From NCBI RefSeq assembly GCF_028737205.1, contig NZ_JAQZAL010000016.1, positions 1 through 64,000 on the forward strand: DNA of 64,000 bases, written 5' to 3'. Under the pieces are notes generated by a model that ran no database searches, was not told where the DNA came from, and saw nothing but the letters and a program-made list of their open reading frames with translations. A program made the position numbers and the translations under genes. Shown here in pieces: positions 5,323 to 43,308 of the stretch (positions are counted from its first letter, which is position 1; every line of letters begins with the position of its first letter). Source of the stretch: Actinomycetospora lutea (lineage in GTDB: Bacteria; Actinomycetota; Actinomycetes; Mycobacteriales; Pseudonocardiaceae).

Positions 5323-6135
5323 TCAGGCGGGCGACCACTCCGCGTCGACACCCGGGTCGACATCGGGGCCGCCCTCCGGGTCGGCGCCGGCGGCCCCGTC
5401 GGGGTCGTCGAGGTCGTCGGGGTCGTCGGGGTCGTCGGGGTCGCCGCCGCCGAACACGATCGCCCGCAGCTGGCGGCGGGCCCGCTCGAGGTGAGCCCGC
5501 ATGGCCTCGGCCGCCACGTCGGCGTCCCCGTCGCGGACCGCCTCGAAGATCGCCTGGTGGTCGCGCAGCGTCTCCTCGACCGGCTCGCGGAACGGCAGCA
5601 GGTCGCGCGGGCTGAACAGCTCGCCGCGGGCGGTCTCGACGGCGTCGGTGAGGCGCTCGTTGCCCGCGGCCCGCGCCAGCGCCACGTGGAACCGCGAGTC
5701 GGCCTGGCGGAACGCGGTGCGCCCGATGACGTCCCGCAGCGCCACGAGGGACTCCTGGATCGGGGCGAGCGTGGCCTCGGTCCGGCGCTGCGCGGCGAGC
5801 GCCGCGGTCTGCGTCTCCAGCGCGATCCGGAAGTCGACGATGTCGTCGATCTCGCCGGCCTGCTCGCGCATCCGGGCCCGCCACGCCTCGGCGGGCCGGC
5901 GCAGCTCGGTGACGTACGTGCCCCCGGTGGACCCCCGGCGGACCTCGACGTAGCCGTCCTCGCGCAGCTGCCGGATGGCCTCCCGGAGGCTGATCCGGGC
6001 GACGCCGAGCTGCTCGGCGAGCTCGCGTTCGGCGGGCAGGCGTTCCCCCGGGCTGACGTCGCCGCGGTGGATGCGCAGACGCAGGTGGTCGGCCACCGCC
6101 TGGGTCAGCGACGTGGAGGAGACCTGCCGGGCCAT
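5323..6135 (-). CDS. GntR-family transcriptional regulator, FadR subfamily
   Basis: 270 residues. N-terminal winged helix about residues 8-75 (PGERLPAERELAEQLGVARISLREAIRQL), then an all-helical FCD ligand domain with the usual metal-site pattern (FRIALE near 100, an FHVALARAAGN segment near 165, and DHQAIFEAV and AHLERAR further on). The last 50 residues are an acidic DPDD-repeat tail encoded by four 9-bp repeats. I start at MARQ (6135); a longer reading upstream has no support. It lies between the two arms of the N-methylglutamate cluster and probably controls both in response to a pathway intermediate, which is inference. Confidence 0.88.
   Translation of the reverse strand: MARQVSSTSLTQAVADHLRLRIHRGDVSPGERLPAERELAEQLGVARISLREAIRQLREDGYVEVRRGSTGGTYVTELRRPAEAWRARMREQAGEIDDIVDFRIALETQTAALAAQRRTEATLAPIQESLVALRDVIGRTAFRQADSRFHVALARAAGNERLTDAVETARGELFSPRDLLPFREPVEETLRDHQAIFEAVRDGDADVAAEAMRAHLERARRQLRAIVFGGGDPDDPDDPDDLDDPDGAAGADPEGGPDVDPGVDAEWSPA
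5404..5439. repeat. 9-bp tandem repeat in the GntR gene tail
   Basis: Four tandem copies of gtcgtcggg (one with a single change) encode a DPD/DDP run in the C-terminal tail of the GntR regulator. Such repeats readily change copy number in steps of three residues without breaking the frame. Confidence 0.8.
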
Positions 6136-6219
6136 GGCCCGACCGTACCGCGCCTGGTCACCCTGCGTGTCGGACCGAGATCGAGGGCCCGTGAGGAGCC
6201 CGGCGGCACTGTGACGGGG

Positions 6220-6265
6220 TTGACACCTTTCCCCGTTCCCGGTTGCCTCTCCAAAGGTCCTAAGT
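6220..6265 (+). promoter_or_regulatory. candidate promoter and operator of gmaS-mgdABCD
   Basis: TTGACA at 6220-6225 sits inside GGGGTTGACAC, identical to the element before the permease-mgs operon. No strong -10 is visible; TTGCCT at 6243-6248 has a 17-nt spacer. GGTCCTAAGT at 6256-6265 differs by one base from GGTCCGAAGT at 5232-5241. ACCTTT (6225-6230) and AAAGGT (6253-6258) form an additional spaced inverted repeat. Confidence 0.4.
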
Positions 6266-6308
6266 CCACACCTTGATCCGCCGTCGTCGCGGCAGAGGGA
6301 GGCCCGAC

Positions 6309-7670
6309 ATGGGCAGTACTGACACCGCACGCGACGAGCTGCGGGAACGTGCGCAGGCCGACGGCATCGAGTTCTTCCTGGCGATGTTCGTCGACCTGCA
6401 CGGCAAGCCGTGCGCGAAGGCGATCCCGTTCTCGTCGTTCGACCTGCTCATGGACGGCGGCGCCGGGTTCGCCGGCTACGCCGCGGGCGACCTCGGACAG
6501 TCGCCCGCCGACCCCGACGTCCTCGTCGTCCCCGACCCGCGCTCGTACACCCCGCTGCCGTGGAAGCCGGGGGTCGCGGTGCTGCACTGCGACCCGCACG
6601 TCGAGGGCAAGCCCTGGCCCTATGCGCCCCGCGTGATCCTGCAGCGCCAGCTCGCCGAGCTCGCGGACAAGCGCGGCTGGGTGTTCAAGACCGGCACCGA
6701 GCTGGAGTACAGCCTGCTGCGCCGCCGCGAGGACGGCACGCTCGATTTCGCCGACCCGCACGACACCGCGGCCAAGCCCTGCTACGAGGTCAAGGGCCTG
6801 ACGCGGATGTGGGACCATCTCTCCACCGTGTCGCGCCACCTCAACACGCTGGGCTGGGGCAACTACGCGAACGACCACGAGGACGGCACCGGCCAGTTCG
6901 AGAACAACTGGGAGTACTCGGACGCGCTCACCACCGCCGACCGCACGATCTTCTTCCGCTACATGGTGCACATGCTGGCGCACGACGCCGGCATGGTCGC
7001 CACGTTCATGCCCAAGCCGTTCAGCACCGTCACCGGCAACGGCCTGCACATCCACCAGAGCCTCTGGACGCAGGACGGCACGCCGCTGTTCGACGACGAC
7101 TCCGACGCCCTGGGCCTCTCGCCCACCGCGCGGCACTACCTGGGCGGGCTGATCGAGCACGGGCGCGCGGTCGCCGGGATCATCTGCCCGACGGTCAACT
7201 CCTACAAGCGCATCGGCGTCGGCGCCCCGACCTCGGGCTCGACCTGGGCGCCGGCCTACGTCGCCTACGGCGGCAACAACCGCACGGTGATGCTGCGCGT
7301 GCCCGAGGGCGGGCGCATCGAGCACCGCGGCGTCGACGGCTCGGCCAACCCCTACCTCGCCGCCACCGCGCTGCTCGCGGCGGGCCTCGACGGCATCGAC
7401 CGCGAGATCGACCCGGGTGCCTGCACCGACGACAACCTCTTCACCCTGCACACCGACGAGGTGCGCGCCCGGGGCATCAAGCACCTCCCGAAGACGCTCG
7501 ACCGCGCCGTCGAGGAGCTCGTCACCGACGACGTCCTGCGCGCCGCGCTCGGCAAGACCTCCGGCGGCGACTTCATCGACTACTACGCCGCGGTGAAGCA
7601 GCAGGAGTTCGACGAGTACCACGCGTCGGTGTCGGACTGGGAGGTCCGGCGCTACCTCACCCAGGCCTGA
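6309..7670 (+). CDS. gmaS: gamma-glutamylmethylamide synthetase (glutamine-synthetase-like, GlnT/GmaS type)
   Basis: 453 residues, the length of GlnT/GmaS-type synthetases. Glutamine-synthetase signatures are present: a substrate-site TGTELEY near 138, GNGLHIHQSLW near 250 (ATP-binding histidine), and NRTVMLRVPEGGRIEHRGVDGSANPY near 330 (the Arg cluster that binds glutamate). Expected reaction: glutamate + methylamine + ATP to gamma-glutamylmethylamide. An ordinary ammonia-using synthetase cannot be excluded from sequence, but the four sarcosine-oxidase-like genes 10 nt downstream and mgsABC across the promoter support the methylamine role. The ATG at 6309 follows an AGGGAGG ribosome-binding site. 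Confidence 0.85.
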   Translation: MGSTDTARDELRERAQADGIEFFLAMFVDLHGKPCAKAIPFSSFDLLMDGGAGFAGYAAGDLGQSPADPDVLVVPDPRSYTPLPWKPGVAVLHCDPHVEGKPWPYAPRVILQRQLAELADKRGWVFKTGTELEYSLLRRREDGTLDFADPHDTAAKPCYEVKGLTRMWDHLSTVSRHLNTLGWGNYANDHEDGTGQFENNWEYSDALTTADRTIFFRYMVHMLAHDAGMVATFMPKPFSTVTGNGLHIHQSLWTQDGTPLFDDDSDALGLSPTARHYLGGLIEHGRAVAGIICPTVNSYKRIGVGAPTSGSTWAPAYVAYGGNNRTVMLRVPEGGRIEHRGVDGSANPYLAATALLAAGLDGIDREIDPGACTDDNLFTLHTDEVRARGIKHLPKTLDRAVEELVTDDVLRAALGKTSGGDFIDYYAAVKQQEFDEYHASVSDWEVRRYLTQA

Positions 7671-7680
7671 GAGGACCTCG

Positions 7681-8967
7681 TTGACGAACAACGGCAGTTC
7701 CCGGACCAACGGCCATCGCCTGTCGGGGTACTCGGCGTGGAGCCTGCTGCGGCACGGTGCCGTGGGCGGCACGTGGCCGCGGGCGTGGCGTGAGCACGAT
7801 CTGGAGTCGTCCTACGACGCGGTGATCATCGGTGGTGGGGTGCACGGGCTGGCCACCGCCTACTACCTGGCGCGCGACCACGGCATGCGCAAGGTCGCCG
7901 TGCTGGACAAGGCCTACATCGGCTCGGGCGGCTCGGGGCGCAACACCGCGATCCTGCGCTCCAACTACCTCACCCCCGAGGGCGTGCGGTTCTACGACCG
8001 CTCGGTGAAGCTCTACGAGCACCTGGCCGCGGATCTGAACTACAACGTGATGTTCTCCCAGCGGGGACACCTCACGCTGGCGCACAACGACGCCTCGCTG
8101 CGCACGATGCACTGGCGCACCGAGGTCAACAAGCTGCAGGGCGTCGACTCCGAGGTGATCGGCCCGGACCGCATCAAGGACCTGGTGCCGTACCTGGACA
8201 CCTCGCCCGACACGCGCTATCCGATCCTGGGGGCGCTGTACCACCCGCCGGGCGGCATCGTGCGCCACGACGCGGTGGTGTGGGGGTACGCGCGGGGCGC
8301 GGACGCCCACGGTGTGCACATCCACCAGCAGACCGAGGTCACCGGCATCGACGTCTCGCACGGCCGCGTGACCGGGGTGCAGACCAGTCGCGGGCCCATC
8401 TCCACGCCGGTGGTCCTCAACGCCACGGCCGGCTGGGCGACGCTGATCTCGGACATGGCCGGGGTGTCCATGCCGGTGCAGACCTTCCCGTTGCAGGCCG
8501 CGGTGACCGAGCCGGTGCGCCCGTTCCTGGACACCGTCGTGGTCTCCGGGACGCTGCACGTCTACGTCAGCCAGACCGACCGCGGCGAGCTCGTGTTCGG
8601 CGCCTCGGTGGACCCGTTCGCGTCGTACTCGATGCGCGGGAGCCTGGAGTTCACCGAGGGGATCGCCGGGCACGTGCTGGAGCTGATGCCCGCGCTGCAC
8701 CGGATGAAGCTGCTGCGCCAGTGGGCCGGGCTCTGCGACATGACCCCGGACTACTCGCCGATCATGGGGCCGACCCCGGTCGAGGGCTTCTACGTCGACG
8801 TCGGGTGGGGGACCTACGGGTTCAAGGCCGGGCCGGTCTCCGGAGAGGCGATGGCCGCCACCCTCGCGACCGGCAAGCCGCCCGAAATCATCACGGCGTT
8901 CGGGCTCGACCGGTTCGCCGACGGGCGCCTGGTCGGGGAGAAGGGCGCGGCCGCCGTCGGCCACTAG
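7681..8967 (+). CDS. mgdA: N-methylglutamate dehydrogenase subunit A, SoxB-like FAD oxidoreductase
   Basis: 428 residues beginning at a TTG codon that follows GAGAGGA. The N-terminal dinucleotide fold reads YDAVIIGGGVHGLATAYYLA (about residue 43). GSGGSGRNTAILRSNYL near 82 matches the flavin region of heterotetrameric sarcosine oxidase beta subunits, and GTYGFKAGPVSGEAMA lies near the C-terminus. The subunit oxidises the N-methyl group of N-methylglutamate. The gene order B-D-A-G matches sarcosine oxidase operons, so the alternative is a true sarcosine or dimethylglycine oxidase; mgsABC and gmaS in the same locus favour N-methylglutamate. Confidence 0.85.
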   Translation: MTNNGSSRTNGHRLSGYSAWSLLRHGAVGGTWPRAWREHDLESSYDAVIIGGGVHGLATAYYLARDHGMRKVAVLDKAYIGSGGSGRNTAILRSNYLTPEGVRFYDRSVKLYEHLAADLNYNVMFSQRGHLTLAHNDASLRTMHWRTEVNKLQGVDSEVIGPDRIKDLVPYLDTSPDTRYPILGALYHPPGGIVRHDAVVWGYARGADAHGVHIHQQTEVTGIDVSHGRVTGVQTSRGPISTPVVLNATAGWATLISDMAGVSMPVQTFPLQAAVTEPVRPFLDTVVVSGTLHVYVSQTDRGELVFGASVDPFASYSMRGSLEFTEGIAGHVLELMPALHRMKLLRQWAGLCDMTPDYSPIMGPTPVEGFYVDVGWGTYGFKAGPVSGEAMAATLATGKPPEIITAFGLDRFADGRLVGEKGAAAVGH

Positions 8968-9012
8968 CGGTTCCTGTCGGTCTTCTTCCTCTGGTTGCTG
9001 GGGTGATCGTTG

Positions 9013-9303
9013 ATGATGTTGCTGCCGTGCCCGTGGTGCGGGCCGCGGAACTCGACGGAGTTCCGCTACGTCGGTGAGGCCGGACCCCGTCCCGACCCGG
9101 CCACGGTGACCCCGGAGCAGTGGCGCCGGTACCTCTACGTCCACGCCAACCCGTGCGGACCGGTGCGCGAGACCTGGTACCACCGGGCGGGCTGCCGGCG
9201 GTACCTGAGCGTGGAGCGCGACACGGCCACCAACGACGTCCGGTCCGCGGTCGACACGGCCTCGGCGGCTGCGGCGAGCTCGGCACCGGGGGACGCGCGA
9301 TGA
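9013..9303 (+). CDS. mgdB: N-methylglutamate dehydrogenase subunit B, SoxD-like small zinc subunit
   Basis: About 96 residues. LPCPWCGPRN at the N-terminus and NPCGPVRETWYHRAGCRRYL near residue 55 are the diagnostic pattern of sarcosine oxidase delta subunits, where the cysteines and histidine bind zinc. Start at one of the two tandem ATGs (9013 or 9016); a TTG at 9010 is also possible. It lies 45 nt after mgdA and its TGA overlaps the mgdC ATG. Confidence 0.85.
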   Translation: MMLLPCPWCGPRNSTEFRYVGEAGPRPDPATVTPEQWRRYLYVHANPCGPVRETWYHRAGCRRYLSVERDTATNDVRSAVDTASAAAASSAPGDAR

Positions 9304-12188
9304 GCCTGCTGCCCACCACCCGCGGTCCCCGCGAGGCCGCCGCGCCCTCGGCGCGGCTGGGCCCGCAGCCCGGCGAGGTGATCGACCGCCGCCGCAGCAT
9401 CCCGTTCACCTGGAACGGCGAGCCGCACACCGCGCACCCCGGCGACACCATCACCTCCGCGCTGGCCGCGGCGGGGGTGCGGGTGTTCGCCCGCAGCTAC
9501 AAGTACCACCGCCCGCGCGGGCTGCTGACCGCGGACTACCTCGATCCCGGGGCGTTCCTGCAGGTCGGCGACGAGCCCAACGTGCGCGGCGCGCACCGGC
9601 TGGTCGAGGCGGGGATGGCGGTGTCCTCGCAGAACACCTGGCCCTCGCTGCGCTACGACCTCAAGGCGGTCAACCAGCTCGCCGGCCGGTTCCTGGCCAC
9701 CGGGTTCTACTACAAGACCTTCATCAAGCCCGAACCGCTCTGGCCGCTGTACGAGAAGGTGCTGCGCCGCTTCGTGCACGCCGGGGCGATCACCCCCGAG
9801 CGCGGCGCCGCGGTCTACGACCACCGTCACGCCCACCCCGACGTCGTCGTCGCCGGCGGCGGCCCGGCGGGGATGGCCGCGGCGGTCGCCGCGGCGCGGG
9901 CGGGGGCGTCGGTGATGCTGGTCGAGGAGAACCACCAGCTCGGCGGGCACCTGCGCTGGGGCGACGCCGCCGACCTCACCGCGCTGGCCGAGCTGCGCGC
10001 CCGGGTCGCCGCCGAACCCGGCATCGAGGTGCTGCTCGACTCGGTGGTCACCGGCCGCTACGACGACAACTGGGTCGGCATCGCCCAGCGCGACCTGCCC
10101 GGCGTCACCGAGCGCCTGATCAAGGCCCGCGCCAAGACCCTCATCGTCGCGCCCGGGCTGATCGAACGCCCGTACGTGTTCGCCGGCAACGACCTGCCCG
10201 GGGTCATGCTCTCCACCGCGGTCCGCCGGCTGATCAACCTCTACGCGGTCCGGCCGGGTCGGCGGGCGGTGGTGATGAGCGCCAACCCCGAGGGCGACCT
10301 CGCCGTCGCCGACCTCGAGCGCGCCGGGGTGGAGGTGGCCGCGGTCCTCGACGCCCGCGACCGCAAGGGCGTGGTCCGCGCCCACGGGCGCGGCGGGCTG
10401 CGCGCGGTCGAGACCAACGAGGGCCGGCGCATCGAGGCCGACCTGCTGGTCACCGCCACCGGCTGGACCGCCCCGACCTCGCTGCTCAACCAGTCCGGCG
10501 ACCGCCCGATCTACGACCCGCGATCGGCGCGCTTCGTGCCCGACCCGGCGCGGATGCCCGAGAACGTGCTCGCCGCGGGCGAGGTCGTCGGCGACGCCGG
10601 CGTCGAGGCGATCGTCGAGCACGCCGAGGCCGTGGGCCGCGAGGCCGCCCGCCGCGCCGGCCGGATCGCCCGGGCGTGGCGCGCGGCCACCCCCGCGCCC
10701 GCCGACACCACCGACCCGAGCGACGACGACCCCGTGACGATCCCGTCGCTCGCCCCGCAGCCGCACCCCGAGCTGTTTGCGGCCGGGACCGGTGGGTTCG
10801 TGGACTTCTGCGAGGACGTGTCCGCCAAGGACATCACGACCGCGGTCGCCGAGGGCTACGACTCGGTGGAGCTGGTCAAGCGCTACACCACGGTCACCAT
10901 GGGCCCCACCCAGGGCAAGCTCGAGACCGTCAACGCCGTCGCCCTGGTCGCCGCCGCGACCGGCCGGAGCATCGCCGAGACCGGCACCACCACCTGGCGC
11001 CCGGTCTACTCCCCGGTGACGCTCGGGGCGCTGGCGGGCCGGCCGCACGAGCCGGTGCGGTACTCGCCGATGCAGAGCTGGCACGAACGCCACGGGGCGA
11101 CGCCCCTGGTCGCGGGCCAGTGGATCCGCCCGGAGCACTACGGCGACCCGGCCGCCGAGGTCCGCGCCGTCCGCACCGGGGTGGGGATCATCGACGTCAC
11201 CCCGATCGGCAAGCTCGACCTGCAGGGTCCCGACGTCCCGCAGCTGCTCAACCTGCTCTACGTGAACAAGTGGTCCAAGCTCGGGATCGGACGGGTCCGC
11301 TACGGGGTGATGTGCGCCGAGGACGGCGTGGTGATGGACGACGGGGTCACCGGCCGCCTCGGCGAGGACCACTACCTGATGTCGACCACCTCGTCCGGGG
11401 CGGCGACGGTGTGGGAGTGGGTCGAGAACTGGCTGCAGACCGCCCACCCGGACTGGCGGGTCCACGTCACCCCGGTGACGACCGCCTACGCCTCGATCAA
11501 CGTCGCGGGACCGCGATCCCGGGAGCTGCTCGCCCGGCTCACCGACGTCGACCTGTCCGCCGACGCGTTCGGCTACATGAACGTCCGCACCGGCGCCGTC
11601 GCCGGGGTGCCGGACTGCGTGTTGTGGCGGATCGGGTTCACCGGCGAGCTGTCCTACGAAATCCATGTGCCCGCGTCCTACGGGCTGCACGTGTGGGAAC
11701 GGCTCATGGCCCACGGCGCCGACCTCGGGGTGCAGCCGTTCGGGGTGGAGGCCCAGCGCATCCTGCGTCTGGAGAAGGGCCACTTCATCGTCGGGCAGGA
11801 CACCGACGGGCTGACCCAGGGCTTCACCGCCGGCATCGACGGGCTGATCAAGCTCGACAAGGCCGACTTCGTCGGCCTCCCCGAGCTCGCCTGGCAGCGC
11901 GAGCGCGACGAGCACCCGCACCTGGTCGGGCTACGCCCCGTCGACGGGTCGGTCGTCCCCCCGGAGGCCAGCCAGATCCTCGACCGCTCCGGCGGCATCG
12001 CCGGGCGCGTGACGTCCAGCCGGATGTCGCCGACGCTCGGCCGCGCGATCGGGCTGGCCCAGATCGACCGCGAGCTCGCCGCCGTCGGCACCCGCGTCAC
12101 GGTCCGCCTGCCGGACGGGCGCGACATCACCGCCGAGGTCACCGACACCGTCCACGTCGACCCCGAAGGAGAGCGCCAGCGTGTCTGA
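9300..12188 (+). CDS. mgdC: N-methylglutamate dehydrogenase subunit C, SoxA-like alpha subunit
   Basis: 962 residues. The start ATG overlaps the mgdB stop (ATGA); a longer in-frame upstream reading conflicts with mgdB. Layout: a sarcosine-oxidase-type N-terminal domain at about 30-110 (GDTITSALAAAGV, SYKYHRPRG), an NAD(P)/flavin dinucleotide domain from about 180 (VVVAGGGPAGMAAAVAAARA) to about 500, and a GcvT-like tetrahydrofolate domain from about 580 to the end. The folate domain captures the methyl carbon as methylene-tetrahydrofolate. It contains two Rossmann-type segments, as expected of this family. Confidence 0.87.
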   Translation: MSLLPTTRGPREAAAPSARLGPQPGEVIDRRRSIPFTWNGEPHTAHPGDTITSALAAAGVRVFARSYKYHRPRGLLTADYLDPGAFLQVGDEPNVRGAHRLVEAGMAVSSQNTWPSLRYDLKAVNQLAGRFLATGFYYKTFIKPEPLWPLYEKVLRRFVHAGAITPERGAAVYDHRHAHPDVVVAGGGPAGMAAAVAAARAGASVMLVEENHQLGGHLRWGDAADLTALAELRARVAAEPGIEVLLDSVVTGRYDDNWVGIAQRDLPGVTERLIKARAKTLIVAPGLIERPYVFAGNDLPGVMLSTAVRRLINLYAVRPGRRAVVMSANPEGDLAVADLERAGVEVAAVLDARDRKGVVRAHGRGGLRAVETNEGRRIEADLLVTATGWTAPTSLLNQSGDRPIYDPRSARFVPDPARMPENVLAAGEVVGDAGVEAIVEHAEAVGREAARRAGRIARAWRAATPAPADTTDPSDDDPVTIPSLAPQPHPELFAAGTGGFVDFCEDVSAKDITTAVAEGYDSVELVKRYTTVTMGPTQGKLETVNAVALVAAATGRSIAETGTTTWRPVYSPVTLGALAGRPHEPVRYSPMQSWHERHGATPLVAGQWIRPEHYGDPAAEVRAVRTGVGIIDVTPIGKLDLQGPDVPQLLNLLYVNKWSKLGIGRVRYGVMCAEDGVVMDDGVTGRLGEDHYLMSTTSSGAATVWEWVENWLQTAHPDWRVHVTPVTTAYASINVAGPRSRELLARLTDVDLSADAFGYMNVRTGAVAGVPDCVLWRIGFTGELSYEIHVPASYGLHVWERLMAHGADLGVQPFGVEAQRILRLEKGHFIVGQDTDGLTQGFTAGIDGLIKLDKADFVGLPELAWQRERDEHPHLVGLRPVDGSVVPPEASQILDRSGGIAGRVTSSRMSPTLGRAIGLAQIDRELAAVGTRVTVRLPDGRDITAEVTDTVHVDPEGERQRV

Positions 12189-38954: not shown

Positions 38955-39740
38955 TCACAGGCCCGTCAGCACCGCCACCAGGCGCTCCGGCCACAGCTGG
39001 ATGCCGACGTGCGAGGTCGGCACGTCGACGACGGTGAACGGCAGGGCCAGCGCCGCGTCCGCCTCGGCGACGAAGCGGTCCTGCAGCTCCGGCAACAGAG
39101 CCCGGTCGGCGGAGAGCCGCACGTAGGTGTGCGGCAGCAGTCCCCAGGCCGCCGGGTCGACGCGCACGGCGTCCTCGTCGATGGCGAGGGTCTCGCGGAC
39201 GTCCATCGACGCGAGCACCGCGAGCAGCTCGGCGCGGGTCCCGTCGGCGAGCAGGGCGTCCTGGAGCGCGTCGAGGGACCTCCGGTCGGTGGTGTGGAGA
39301 TCGACCCGCAGCTCGCCGACCTCGGCGGGATCGGCGGTGACGAGGCCCGGGGCCAGCTCGTCGAGCGCGGAGGGGCCGGTCTCGGCCAGGTAGGTCGACG
39401 GCCCGGTGTCGACGCAGCACCACGCCGAGACGTAGACGACGTGGGTGAGCAGCTCGGGCACGGCGTTCGCCACCGCGGTGACGGTCATCCCGCCGCGGCT
39501 GTGGCCCACGAGCACCACCGGGCCGTGCTCGTGGGCCGCGCGCACGACGGCCACCACCGCGGCCACGTCGTCGGCGGTCGAGAGCCCGACCATCCCGGTC
39601 GGGCGGGCGTCGAGCCCGTGCCCGGGCAGGTCGACGGCGACGGCCCGGTGGCCGTGCAGCGCGAGCGCGCGGGACACCGGCCCCCAGTGCGCGGCGTTGG
39701 CGAAGGCGCCGTGGACGAGGACGTAGGTGGTCGGCGCCAT
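38955..39740 (-). CDS. alpha/beta-hydrolase
   Basis: 261 residues. LVHGAFANAAHW near residue 8 supplies the oxyanion hole, VLVGHSRGGMTVTAVA near 96 carries the nucleophile Ser, and the catalytic His is in DVPTSHVGIQLWPERL near the C-terminus. Resembles small esterases of the plant-type salicylate/jasmonate esterase class (YVLVHGAF). Substrate unknown. Confidence 0.82.
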   Translation of the reverse strand: MAPTTYVLVHGAFANAAHWGPVSRALALHGHRAVAVDLPGHGLDARPTGMVGLSTADDVAAVVAVVRAAHEHGPVVLVGHSRGGMTVTAVANAVPELLTHVVYVSAWCCVDTGPSTYLAETGPSALDELAPGLVTADPAEVGELRVDLHTTDRRSLDALQDALLADGTRAELLAVLASMDVRETLAIDEDAVRVDPAAWGLLPHTYVRLSADRALLPELQDRFVAEADAALALPFTVVDVPTSHVGIQLWPERLVAVLTGL

Positions 39741-39801
39741 CGGTCCTCCCCGTCAGACGACGAGCGCGGTGCACCGTGACCGGTGCACCGCGCTCGTGGT
39801 G

Positions 39802-39874
39802 TAGCCCCGAGGGGATTCGAACCCCCGCTACCGCCTTGAGAGGGCGGCGTCCTAGGCCGCTAGACGACGGGGCC
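39802..39874 (-). tRNA. tRNA-Glu (anticodon CTC)
   Basis: Full cloverleaf on the minus strand. Acceptor GGCCCCG pairs with CGGGGCT (one G-T), with discriminator A. The anticodon stem CCGCC/GGCGG encloses loop CTCTCAA, which gives anticodon CTC, and the T-loop is GTTCGAATC. No CCA encoded. 48 nt from the tRNA-Gln gene on the same strand, so the two are probably co-transcribed. Confidence 0.95.
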
Positions 39875-39922
39875 CTAGGAGAACGGCGCCGAGCCTAGAT
39901 CACGCTCCGCCACCGCTCACAG

Positions 39923-39994
39923 CTGGGGTACCAGGACTCGAACCTAGAACAACTGAACCAGAATCAGCCGTGTTGCCAATTACACCATACCCCA
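39923..39994 (-). tRNA. tRNA-Gln (anticodon CTG)
   Basis: Cloverleaf on the minus strand. Acceptor TGGGGTA pairs with TACCCCA, with discriminator G. Anticodon stem GCTGA/TCAGT encloses loop TTCTGGT, which gives anticodon CTG. T-arm contains GGTTCGAGTCC. Located upstream of tRNA-Glu on the same strand. Confidence 0.95.
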
Positions 39995-40170
39995 AGGCGG
40001 TCACCGAGCGTGACGAGAACGTCTGCCCGATGACGACGACCAGTCTAGGACATGCTCGCGCGCCGGTTCGACACCCCCCGCGGGGTCCCCGGACCCGCAG
40101 GTCAGGAACCCCACCCGCGGCCCGGTAACCTGGGTGAGTTCGGCTGCCGCACCACCAGGAAGATCGAGAC

Positions 40171-43100
40171 GTGAGCTCATCGCCGTCCCCCGGTCCCGCG
40201 GGCAAGCCCGCGTTCGCTCCCCTCCCCGCGAGCGTGGACCTGCCCGCGATCGAGCGCGAGGTCCTGGCCCGCTGGTCCGACCGCGACGTGTTCCGCCGCT
40301 CCCTCGAGCGCACCGCCGACGGCGAGCCGTGGATCTTCTACGAGGGCCCGCCGACGGCCAACGGCCAGCCGGGCACCCACCACGTCGAGGCCCGCGCGTT
40401 CAAGGACCTCTTCCCCCGGTTCAGGACGATGCGCGGCTACCACGTCCCGCGCCGCGCCGGCTGGGACTGCCACGGCCTGCCCGTCGAGCTCGCCGTCGAG
40501 AAGGAGCTCGGCTTCACCGGCAGGGCCGACATCGAGACCTACGGCATCGCCGAGTTCAACGCCGCCTGCCGGGAGTCGGCACTGCGCAACGTCTCGGCCT
40601 TCGCCGCGATGACCGAGCGGATGGGCTACTGGGTCGACCTCGACGAGGCCTACCTGACCATGGCCCCGCGCTACGTCGAGAGCGTCTGGTGGTCGCTCAA
40701 GAAGATCTTCGATGACGGCCTGCTCGTCGAGGACCACCGCGTGACGCCCTACTGCCCGCGCGACGAGACGCCGCTGTCGGACCACGAGGTCGCGCTCGGC
40801 TACGAGGACGACGTCGACCCCTCGGTCTACGTGCGCTTCCCGCTCACCGACGGGCCGTGGGCCGGCGCCGACCTGCTGATCTGGACCACCACGCCGTGGA
40901 CGCTGCCCTCGAACACCGCCGTGGCCGTGGCGCGCGACATCGCCTACGTCCGCGCGACCACCGCGGACGGTGACGACCTCGTGGTCGCCGAGGACCTGCT
41001 GTCGGTGCTGGGCGAGCGCGCGACCGTCACCGATCGCGCCACCGGCGCCGACCTGCTCGGCAGCCACTACCGCCGCCCGCTCGACCTCATCGACGGTGAG
41101 CGCTTCGGTGACGCGCACCGCGTCGTGCACGGCGACCACGTCACCACCGACGCCGGCACCGGCCTGGTGCACATGGCGCCGGCCTTCGGCGCCGAGGACC
41201 ACCTCGTGGCCAAGGCCGAGGGCCTCGAGATGGTCAACCCGATCGGGCCGGACGGGCACTTCCACGCCGACGTCCCCCTCATCGGCGGGATGTTCTTCAA
41301 GGGCGCCGACCCGACGCTGGTCGAGGAGCTGCGCGCCCGCGGCGTGCTGTGGCGCTCGGAGTCCTACGAGCACTCCTATCCGCACTGCTGGCGCTGCCAC
41401 ACCCCGCTGATCTACTACGCGCTGCCCTCGTGGTTCATCCGCACCACCGCGGTCCGCGACCGCCTGGTCGAGGAGAACGAGCGGACGAACTGGTACCCGC
41501 CGCACATCAAGCACGGCCGCTACGGCGGGTGGCTCGAGAACAACGTCGACTGGGCGCTCTCGCGCAACCGCTACTGGGGCACGCCGCTGCCGATCTGGCG
41601 CAACGACGCGGATCCCGCGGAGATGGTGTGCGTGGGGTCGCTGGCCGAGCTCTCGAGCTGGGCCGGCGAGGACCTGTCCGAGCTCGACCCCCACCGCCCC
41701 TTCGTCGACGACGTCACGTTCCCGGCCCCGAGCGGGACCGGCACGATGCGCCGCGTCACCGACGTCATCGACGTCTGGTACGACTCGGGCGCGATGCCGT
41801 TCGCCCAGTGGGGCGCGCCGCACCACCACGAGGCCGACTTCGAGGCGGCCTACCCCGCGCAGTACATCTGCGAGGCGATCGACCAGACCCGCGGCTGGTT
41901 CTACTCGCTGATGGCCGTGGGCACGCTGGTGTTCGACCGGTCGTCCTACGAGAACGTCGTGTGCCTGGGCCTGCTGCTCGACGAGCAGGGCCGCAAGATG
42001 TCGAAGCACCTGGGCAACGTGCTCGACCCGTTCGAGCTGTTCGACTCCCACGGCGCCGACGCCGTGCGCTGGCTGATGCTCGCCCAGGGCTCGCCCTGGG
42101 TCGACCGCCGCGTCGGGCACGAGGCGCTGCGCGAGATCGTCCGCAAGATCCTGCTGACCTACTGGAACACCGCGTCGTTCCTGGTCACGTACGCGAACGC
42201 GGCGAACTGGACCCCCGGCGAGCGGGTCGCGTCCGACCACCCGATGGACCGCTGGGTGCTCGGCGAGCTCGCCACGTGCGTCCGCGAGGTCACCCGCGCG
42301 CTCGACGACTTCGACTCCTCGAGCGCCGGGCGCGCGATCGCGGCGTTCGTCGACGAGCTGTCGAACTGGTACGTGCGCCGCTCGCGCCGCCGCTTCTGGG
42401 CGGGCGAGCCGGCGGCCCTGAGCACGCTGCACCGCTGCGTCGAGACGCTCTCGCGGCTCATGGCGCCGTTCACGCCGTTCGCCACCGACTACCTGTGGAC
42501 CCTGCTGCAGGGCGACGTGGTCGAGGGCGCGCCCGACTCGGTGCACCTCGCCGACTGGCCCGAGATCGACGAGTCCGCCATCGACCCGGGCCTGGCCGAG
42601 CGGATGGCGCTCGTGCAGCGGATCGTCGAGCTCGGCCGCTCGACGCGCGCGGCCAGCGGGGTGCGCACGCGCCAGCCGCTCGCGCGCGCCGTCGTCGCCG
42701 CCCCGGGCTTCGCGGCCCTGGACGACGAGCTGCTGGCCGAGATCGCCGAGGAGCTCAACGTCGGGCGGGTCGAGGCCGCCGGCTCGGACCTCGTCGAGGT
42801 CGCGGTGAAGCCCAACTTCCGCGCGCTCGGCAAGCGCTTCGCGAAGCGGACCCCGGTGGTCGCGGAGGCCGTCAAGGCGTCCACCGCGGCGCCGGTCGAC
42901 GGGGCGCTCACGGTGGTCGTGGAGGGCGAGGAGATCACGCTGTCCGGCGACGAGATCGTCGTGGAGGAGACGCCGCGCGAGGGCTGGGCCGTCCGCTCGG
43001 AGAGCGGCCTGTCGGTCGGGCTCGACACCGAGCTCACCGACGAGCTGCGCGCCGCCGGGCTCGCCCGCGACGTGGTGCGCGTCGTGCAGGAGGCCCGCAA

Positions 43101-43308
43101 GACCCGCGGCCTCGAGGTCTCGGACCGCATCGCGCTGACGTGGGCGGCCGAGCGCACCGACGTCGCCGACGCCGTGCGCGCCCACGCCGGCACGATCGCC
43201 GAGGAGGTCCTCGCGGTGTCGATGACCGAGGGGGCCGTCAACGGTGACGCGGCGGCCCGCTCCGACGACCTCGCGCTCGACGTCGCGATCACCCCGGCCG
43301 AGGTCTGA
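40171..43308 (+). CDS. ileS: isoleucyl-tRNA synthetase with GTHH signature
   Basis: 1045 residues, the length of type 2 (eukaryote-like) IleRS. The first class I motif, normally HIGH-type, reads GTHH (residues 68-71, in GQPGTHHVEARAFKDLF). The second is intact as KMSKH (609-613). DCHGLPVE near 112, WYDSGAMPFAQWG in the CP1-editing/synthetic region and the CxxC (HCWRCH near 410) fit IleRS. GTG start with AGGAAG upstream. Transcribed away from the tRNA pair; a TAACCT at 40126-40131 could be a -10. The altered motif matches a published group of IleRS2 enzymes linked with mupirocin hyper-resistance. Confidence 0.93.
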   Translation: MSSSPSPGPAGKPAFAPLPASVDLPAIEREVLARWSDRDVFRRSLERTADGEPWIFYEGPPTANGQPGTHHVEARAFKDLFPRFRTMRGYHVPRRAGWDCHGLPVELAVEKELGFTGRADIETYGIAEFNAACRESALRNVSAFAAMTERMGYWVDLDEAYLTMAPRYVESVWWSLKKIFDDGLLVEDHRVTPYCPRDETPLSDHEVALGYEDDVDPSVYVRFPLTDGPWAGADLLIWTTTPWTLPSNTAVAVARDIAYVRATTADGDDLVVAEDLLSVLGERATVTDRATGADLLGSHYRRPLDLIDGERFGDAHRVVHGDHVTTDAGTGLVHMAPAFGAEDHLVAKAEGLEMVNPIGPDGHFHADVPLIGGMFFKGADPTLVEELRARGVLWRSESYEHSYPHCWRCHTPLIYYALPSWFIRTTAVRDRLVEENERTNWYPPHIKHGRYGGWLENNVDWALSRNRYWGTPLPIWRNDADPAEMVCVGSLAELSSWAGEDLSELDPHRPFVDDVTFPAPSGTGTMRRVTDVIDVWYDSGAMPFAQWGAPHHHEADFEAAYPAQYICEAIDQTRGWFYSLMAVGTLVFDRSSYENVVCLGLLLDEQGRKMSKHLGNVLDPFELFDSHGADAVRWLMLAQGSPWVDRRVGHEALREIVRKILLTYWNTASFLVTYANAANWTPGERVASDHPMDRWVLGELATCVREVTRALDDFDSSSAGRAIAAFVDELSNWYVRRSRRRFWAGEPAALSTLHRCVETLSRLMAPFTPFATDYLWTLLQGDVVEGAPDSVHLADWPEIDESAIDPGLAERMALVQRIVELGRSTRAASGVRTRQPLARAVVAAPGFAALDDELLAEIAEELNVGRVEAAGSDLVEVAVKPNFRALGKRFAKRTPVVAEAVKASTAAPVDGALTVVVEGEEITLSGDEIVVEETPREGWAVRSESGLSVGLDTELTDELRAAGLARDVVRVVQEARKTRGLEVSDRIALTWAAERTDVADAVRAHAGTIAEEVLAVSMTEGAVNGDAAARSDDLALDVAITPAEV

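Follow-up and report, generated by a model that had tools for sequence, protein, structure and literature searches.

Class I aminoacyl-tRNA synthetases share a signature motif that is taught as nearly invariant, which raises the question of what to make of a gene in which it appears to be rearranged. The gene is ileS, at positions 40171 to 43308 (plus strand) of a 64,000-nucleotide stretch of Actinomycetospora lutea (contig NZ_JAQZAL010000016.1), hereafter the window. A first-pass annotation of this DNA had noted GTHH where isoleucyl-tRNA synthetase (IleRS) normally reads HxGH, a fit to the 1,3-swapped type 2 enzymes (GxHH IleRS2) that are described as strongly resistant to mupirocin. Is the swap real, is this the only IleRS of the cell, and where did the gene come from? 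Our answer, to which as a whole we assign a probability of roughly 0.83, is that it encodes a putatively mupirocin-excluding GTHH IleRS2, the housekeeping and, as far as found, sole IleRS of the cell, which was gained horizontally and replaced the canonical HYGH enzyme of the family Pseudonocardiaceae, in which Actinomycetospora is placed as a genus.

The product of the gene, 1045 amino acids long and read from a GTG start, scored 880.9 bits against the TIGR00392 (ileS) profile, which has a cut-off of 621.4 bits, and contains the Pfam domains tRNA-synt_1, Anticodon_1 and DUF5915. In phmmer alignments the GTHH at residues 68-71 (40372 to 40383, codons GGC ACC CAC CAC) matched the HVGH of the Thermus enzyme 1ILE without gaps (870.7 bits) and took the same alignment position in four chains of Priestia IleRS2. 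The best-scoring Priestia chain, 8c8w (865.5 bits), has GVHH and the next, 8c8v (856.8 bits), has HVGH, a ranking that is only suggestive since the two chains differ elsewhere too. The scores for 1ILE and for the Priestia IleRS2 chains (854-866 bits) compare with 360-368 bits for 8c9e, 8c9f and 1ffy, which were assigned to IleRS1 from the published description, and this places the enzyme in type 2. All 15 distinct Actinomycetospora ileS genes that were read, a set of genes rather than every one of the 18 genomes of the genus, have GTHH together with KMSKH, which excludes a sequencing error as the source of the motif. The valyl-tRNA synthetase (ValRS) of the same genome has an ordinary HVGH and provides an internal contrast. 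The motif reported in the first-pass annotation is thus confirmed at its place, with Gly at the first position and His at the third and fourth; no H-x-G-H that could serve as a normal HIGH occurs anywhere in the protein, the alignment with a published GxHH enzyme holds for the GVHH of 8c8w, and the fit to the swapped IleRS2 pattern is supported, by homology, from sequence, domains and motif position.

Enzymes of this kind are known. According to the available passages of PMC10485003, IleRS2 with a GxHH or, more broadly, G/AXHH motif have millimolar inhibition constants (Ki) for mupirocin; the D. radiodurans enzyme DrIleRS2, with ALHH, has a Ki of 6.6 mM, and reverting its motif to HVGH lowers the Ki 823-fold. 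The same passages trace the motif to no fewer than two origins, with a single reversion, state that IleRS1 and IleRS2 usually occur singly, and attribute the swapped motif also to the IleRS of S. griseus, for which the available part of PMC4861432 gives a Ki of about 10 mM. The HYPFE motif, in the latter source typical of eukaryote-like IleRS, is retained in the HYGH class, degenerate in the listed GxHH rows and replaced by GAPHH in the window protein, which in this respect belongs, like other actinobacterial GxHH genes, to a divergent branch of IleRS2.

Whether the gene is the only ileS had been left open. The window genome, a draft of 106 contigs that is 96.3% complete, contained one TIGR00392 match above the cut-off, and a one-contig genome of the genus (G042) also contained a single IleRS, so that no second copy was found in either. 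Searches of 18 Actinomycetospora genomes with the HYGH protein of the family yielded no HYGH-class ileS: 17 of them returned only an IleRS of 44-46% identity (in G205 fragmentary and interrupted by a stop) along with ValRS and other synthetases, and G202, which is 59% complete, returned other synthetases only. When GTDB genomes were scanned with peptide patterns free of the motif, 553 loci were confirmed, and among the 80 best of them 7 were from Actinomycetospora, at 78-95% identity to the window protein.

These counts bear on the idea that the GTHH gene is an accessory copy, for self-resistance or biosynthesis, and that a normal IleRS does the housekeeping. A possible precedent is found in genome G019 of genus g20, where a locus (L321, 6206-9349 and 10764-13790) holds a GTHH ileS, a major facilitator superfamily (MFS) transporter gene and an IleRS-like gene with HYGH and a degraded KMSKS (SMSRA), among genes for AMP-binding, Asn-synthase, methyltransferase and flavin adenine dinucleotide (FAD)-dependent enzymes; an HYGH ileS lies elsewhere in that genome. 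The arrangement resembles what the available part of PMC6331615 describes for SbzA and the SB-203208 cluster, and is possibly a natural-product cluster of that type with its own resistant IleRS. The window ileS, by contrast, has no evident cluster of that kind around it, and in view of the single copies found in the two genomes we regard an accessory role as highly improbable.

Both classes of enzyme occur in the family. Among 200 Pseudonocardiaceae genomes, 38 carry a GxHH gene, 10 from Actinomycetospora and 28 others; the motif was read in all of these 28. A gene of the HYGH class (70-81% identity to the HYGH query) is also present in 19 of these 28, and the other nine lack it (G028, G037, G046, G071, G079, G136, G138, G180 and G190); two of the nine, G079 and G190, consist of one contig each, and completeness is 86-87% in G028, G138 and G180. 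In the remaining 162 genomes the best match is as strong as those of HYGH-class genes, apart from a weaker one in G148, and HYGH was confirmed in all 39 family genes of this class that were read, from 26 of the 162 genomes and 13 of the 19 double carriers. GxHH alone is therefore a state that occurs beyond Actinomycetospora, which is the one lineage in which it extends to a whole sampled genus. Sampling of the wider order comprised 81 genomes, and double carriers of HYGH and GTHH were also observed in two of its other families (L333 in G522 of f56, L334 in G544 of f57).

The position of the gene among other ileS genes disagrees with that of its hosts. In a tree of 58 GxHH sequences, the Actinomycetospora genes grouped with the second copies of genus g20 at a support of 100 by the Shimodaira-Hasegawa-like approximate likelihood ratio test (SH-aLRT), and these together with the genes of Frankia and family f19 at 99.9. 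An 81-row tree recovered Actinomycetospora as one clade (100), joined by the g20 second copies (99) and standing next to Frankia/f19 (97), while most other GxHH genes of the family fell into a distant clade together with a sequence labelled Nocardia sp. NRRL S-836 (99). In this tree the IleRS of one f19 genome coincides with the Frankia sp. CIT1 enzyme, and a metagenome-assembled genome labelled Frankiaceae (L071) lies outside the group of Actinomycetospora, g20 and Frankia/f19. The approximately unbiased (AU) test rejected topologies in which Actinomycetospora joins the remaining GxHH genes of the family (p 0.0002), and a single clade of all Pseudonocardiaceae GxHH genes was rejected as well (p 0.003). 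The rpoB tree of 30 rows, in conflict with the Frankiaceae grouping, placed Actinomycetospora inside a clade of f1 (the Pseudonocardiaceae) and f2 (100) and f19 in a separate one (99). We used rpoB as the vertical control because ValRS proved unsuitable, the ValRS of Actinomycetospora being itself of another class. As a side observation, the IleRS in the record titled Nocardia sp. NRRL S-836 (L083) groups with Pseudonocardiaceae genes, and the name of the record may be wrong.

The chromosomal place of the gene points the same way as the trees. In three of four contexts examined (L192, L194, L195), the HYGH ileS lies between DivIVA and a group of Na/H exchanger, lspA and rluD genes, on the same strand. 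The corresponding slot in the window genome (L191) runs from FtsZ through DivIVA (6075-7007), an open reading frame (ORF) without Pfam match and the Na/H exchanger (8574-10121) to lspA and rluD, and tblastn searches of this slot with both IleRS classes gave no ileS remnant, the best hit having an E-value of 0.77. The first-pass annotation had the gene next to a tRNA pair, and this is borne out: tRNA-Gln(ctg), which adjoins ileS, occupies 39922 to 39994 and tRNA-Glu(ctc) 39801 to 39874, both on the minus strand. Scans showed the same adjacency in the one-contig genome and in each of seven named loci of Actinomycetospora, as compared to none of 21 other loci; the tRNA pair itself is present in each of 13 genomes from outside the genus, 10 of them Pseudonocardiaceae, and never adjoins an ileS. 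Because the original slot is empty, the gene sits at the tRNA pair and its grouping with Frankiaceae conflicts with rpoB, we favour a history in which a horizontally acquired synthetase took over from the housekeeping one. The Actinomycetospora lineage would have acquired the GTHH gene from a Frankiaceae-like donor, the gained gene would have been placed by the conserved tRNA pair, and the canonical HYGH IleRS, still present in most of the family, would have been lost, where the direction of transfer and the order of gain and loss are those that we infer.

The opposite history is vertical retention, in which the ancestor of the family had GxHH, most lineages switched to HYGH and Actinomycetospora kept and relocated the old gene. 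The frequency of GxHH genes in the DivIVA-lspA slot speaks for such a history: 66 of 73 named GxHH loci outside Actinomycetospora have at least one of FtsZ, DivIVA, lspA and rluD in their flanks, and three of the seven exceptions lie on contigs about 4 kb long. Within the Pseudonocardiaceae, the GxHH gene of G071 (genus g38, L203) occupies the slot and, like the Frankia gene, runs opposite to DivIVA, and since GxHH occurs in families f47, f48, f52-f55, f58 and f59, it may well be ancestral in the order. The other GxHH copies of the family that were examined in context are without slot genes (nine loci, L196-L199, L200, L202 and L204-L206, plus L210 and the shorter L201). Retention from a common family ancestor is at odds with the two rejected topologies and with the 99.9 support for the Frankiaceae grouping, and we consider it unlikely. 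A SAM-IV riboswitch was also observed near the HYGH ileS of G105 (L195, 5854-5968, minus strand).

Several observations weigh against horizontal replacement by a resistant enzyme. The trees come from quick IQ-TREE searches with SH-aLRT as their sole support measure, and the rpoB support for f1 including Actinomycetospora is only 80. When three HYGH outgroup rows were added to give 61 rows, the long-branched HYGH genes attached beside Actinomycetospora and g20; we take this as a long-branch effect, and holding Actinomycetospora, g20 and Frankia/f19 together in this set was slightly better (p 0.64). In the fourth HYGH context (L193) there is no slot gene near the HYGH ileS, and the HYGH gene can therefore also move. 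None of the nine tested ORFs flanking the window ileS is an integrase or other mobile-element gene, and the draft state of the window genome limits what can be said on copy number. Finally, the resistance of the GTHH enzyme would follow by analogy with its relatives, and its X residue is Thr, which is outside the Ile, Val, Leu, Met and Tyr listed in the Fig. 1 legend of PMC10485003, and no GTHH enzyme figures among the variants given as assayed in the available sections of that source; we take the absence of Thr from the legend as a gap in the list rather than a defining limit.

This last assumption can be set beside the motifs of a broader survey. The motif alignment comprised 198 rows, the window and 197 loci, that represent 168 distinct genes and were gathered mainly with the window protein, so the set is biased towards the GxHH class. 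GTHH was read in 58 of the 168 genes (56 with KMSKH, one with RMSKH and one with KMSKR), GVHH in 50 (49 with KMSKH, one with KMSKS), GAHH in 26, GIHH in one and HYGH in 32 (KMSKS in 30 of these, KMSKT in two); the remaining gene was truncated at the motif. Actinobacterial IleRS genes thus commonly have Thr at X. Elsewhere in the order, beyond the Pseudonocardiaceae, the motif was read in 15 genes of the other class, and all had GxHH with KMSKH; among HYGH-class loci of the order, the motif was read in 32 (about 42 genomes have such a gene) and was HYGH in 31 and HIGH in one. KMSKH was considered as an obligatory partner of GxHH and discarded as a strict rule on account of one gene with GVHH and KMSKS (L141/L200) and one with GTHH and KMSKR (L103/L210); as KMSKH otherwise tracks one clade, it says little on mechanism. 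The former gene is the second IleRS of G068, a genome that also has HYGH, and sits on a long branch away from other GxHH genes. A more divergent IleRS, the sole one found in G506 (family f51, 86% complete; L336, 142-3360), has AVHT at the HIGH place and GREMHGSWGN around the KMSKS place and scored 612.3 bits, slightly below the TIGR00392 cut-off.

How the swap would confer resistance can be proposed by analogy with the published enzymes. Gly68 would stand in for the first His of the motif, His70 at the third place would take over its transition-state role, and the bulk of His70 beside the adenosine pocket may exclude mupirocin, in which case the organism should be highly mupirocin resistant. 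It could also be that the enzyme is as described and mupirocin is irrelevant, GxHH being an old trait of the class with resistance as a side effect, and that the replacement was neutral or was selected by a different IleRS inhibitor. GxHH is indeed widespread in the class (134 of the 168 distinct genes in the biased set), SB-203207 is a natural IleRS inhibitor from an actinomycete (PMC9113183, in the part available), and the window contains nothing that points to mupirocin. On the other side, the accessible passages of PMC10485003 report that exchanging the motif shifts the mupirocin Ki by 10^2 to 10^3, the authors of both that paper and PMC4861432 favour mupirocin as the selective pressure, and the latter propose that horizontal transfer of ileS2 was driven by resistance. 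We put the chance that mupirocin played no part at a little under even.

An AGGAAG resembling a ribosome-binding site (40157 to 40162, plus strand) lies 8 bases upstream of the GTG, and the G+C content at third codon positions (0.988) is similar to that of neighbouring genes, which by Pfam searches of nine ORFs include LysR, P450, EamA transporter, hydrolase, methyltransferase and ABC-transporter genes. T-box regulation was considered and rejected, since there was no match at gathering score in the window or seven context loci, nor any in 39700-40400 among matches up to an E-value of 5. By alignment with 1ILE, the protein has kept TTTPWTLPSN (residues 239-248, 40885 to 40914), which we take to be the threonine-rich stretch of the editing domain, and HMAPAFGAED (residues 334-343, 41170 to 41199), presumably its second stretch. 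KMSKH, which the first-pass annotation did not mention, stands where KMSKS is expected (residues 609-613, 41995 to 42009), followed by the Anticodon_1 domain (PF08264, residues 693-837, 42247 to 42681) and the C-terminal DUF5915 domain (PF19302, residues 858-1040, 42742 to 43290), all on the plus strand. Leu601 (41971 to 41973, plus strand) aligns with His582 of PmIleRS2, a residue compared among mupirocin-bound structures in the available text of PMC10485003; the site is variable across GxHH rows, with Leu in 95 and His in 66 of 161.

The ValRS of Actinomycetospora deserves separate mention. The genes of four genomes (L211-L214, from G000, G118, G042 and G166; G000:C8:15332-17926) belong to an alternative class (NF000540, alt_ValS, 1488.8 bits), with 64-72% identity to f19, f18 and other groups as against about 31-34% to the usual ValRS of the family, and the matches listed for the four genomes tested included none as strong as expected of the usual class. 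Valine charging may have been swapped too in this genus, and the forks of the 17-row ValRS tree that bear on its origin are weak (73).

Taken together, a near-invariant class I motif is swapped in what appears to be the sole IleRS throughout a genus, within a family that shows every intermediate state, with HYGH alone, both genes, or GxHH alone. It is tempting, if rather speculative, to view the Pseudonocardiaceae as a natural swapping ground, in which HYGH and GxHH IleRS2 were repeatedly gained, kept together and lost, a process that left the drug-proof enzyme as the only one in Actinomycetospora at least, with natural IleRS inhibitors from neighbours or from the carriers as drivers and ValRS perhaps exchanged as well. 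The natural strains make it testable whether replacement of a synthetase follows exposure to IleRS inhibitors, and at what cost, and mupirocin resistance in soil actinobacteria may be intrinsic and chromosomal. Thr or Ala at X is common, yet both are omitted from the list of the founding paper, PMC10485003, in its available part. The replacement history adds interest beyond the motif itself.

The kind of enzyme is thus already known and the replacement history is, as far as searched, unreported. In the open-access literature, a search that did not cover subscription papers, we found no publication on Actinomycetospora and mupirocin and met the name GXHH in one paper only; within the same scope, the available passages of PMC10485003 and PMC4861432 do not describe coexisting HYGH and GxHH IleRS2 in Pseudonocardiaceae or such a replacement. 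Among known systems, the plasmid-borne resistant enzymes MupA and MupB are distant homologues (732.7 and 724.7 bits), and membership in their families was rejected, as these scores are far under the 1900-bit cut-offs. The HYGH IleRS of the Pseudonocardiaceae (P0001, L121-L140, L149-L160) is of the same activity class (TIGR00392, 855.8 bits) and differs in having 45% identity, HYGH with KMSKS and usually another chromosomal place, and in not having been found in Actinomycetospora. Closest outside the family are the IleRS of Frankia and Parafrankia (L018-L026, L041, L077; f19), with 63-69% identity and GxHH plus KMSKH, which mostly read GAHH (also GTHH and GVHH) and are encoded in the DivIVA-lspA neighbourhood instead of at the tRNA pair. 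With the G/AXHH IleRS2 of D. radiodurans (ALHH) and S. griseus, the window enzyme shares the swap of positions 1 and 3 of HxGH, the status of sole IleRS, a soil actinobacterium as host and, by analogy, an expected millimolar Ki for mupirocin; it differs in the Thr at X, in KMSKH rather than KMSKS and, most probably, in having replaced the canonical HYGH IleRS of its family.

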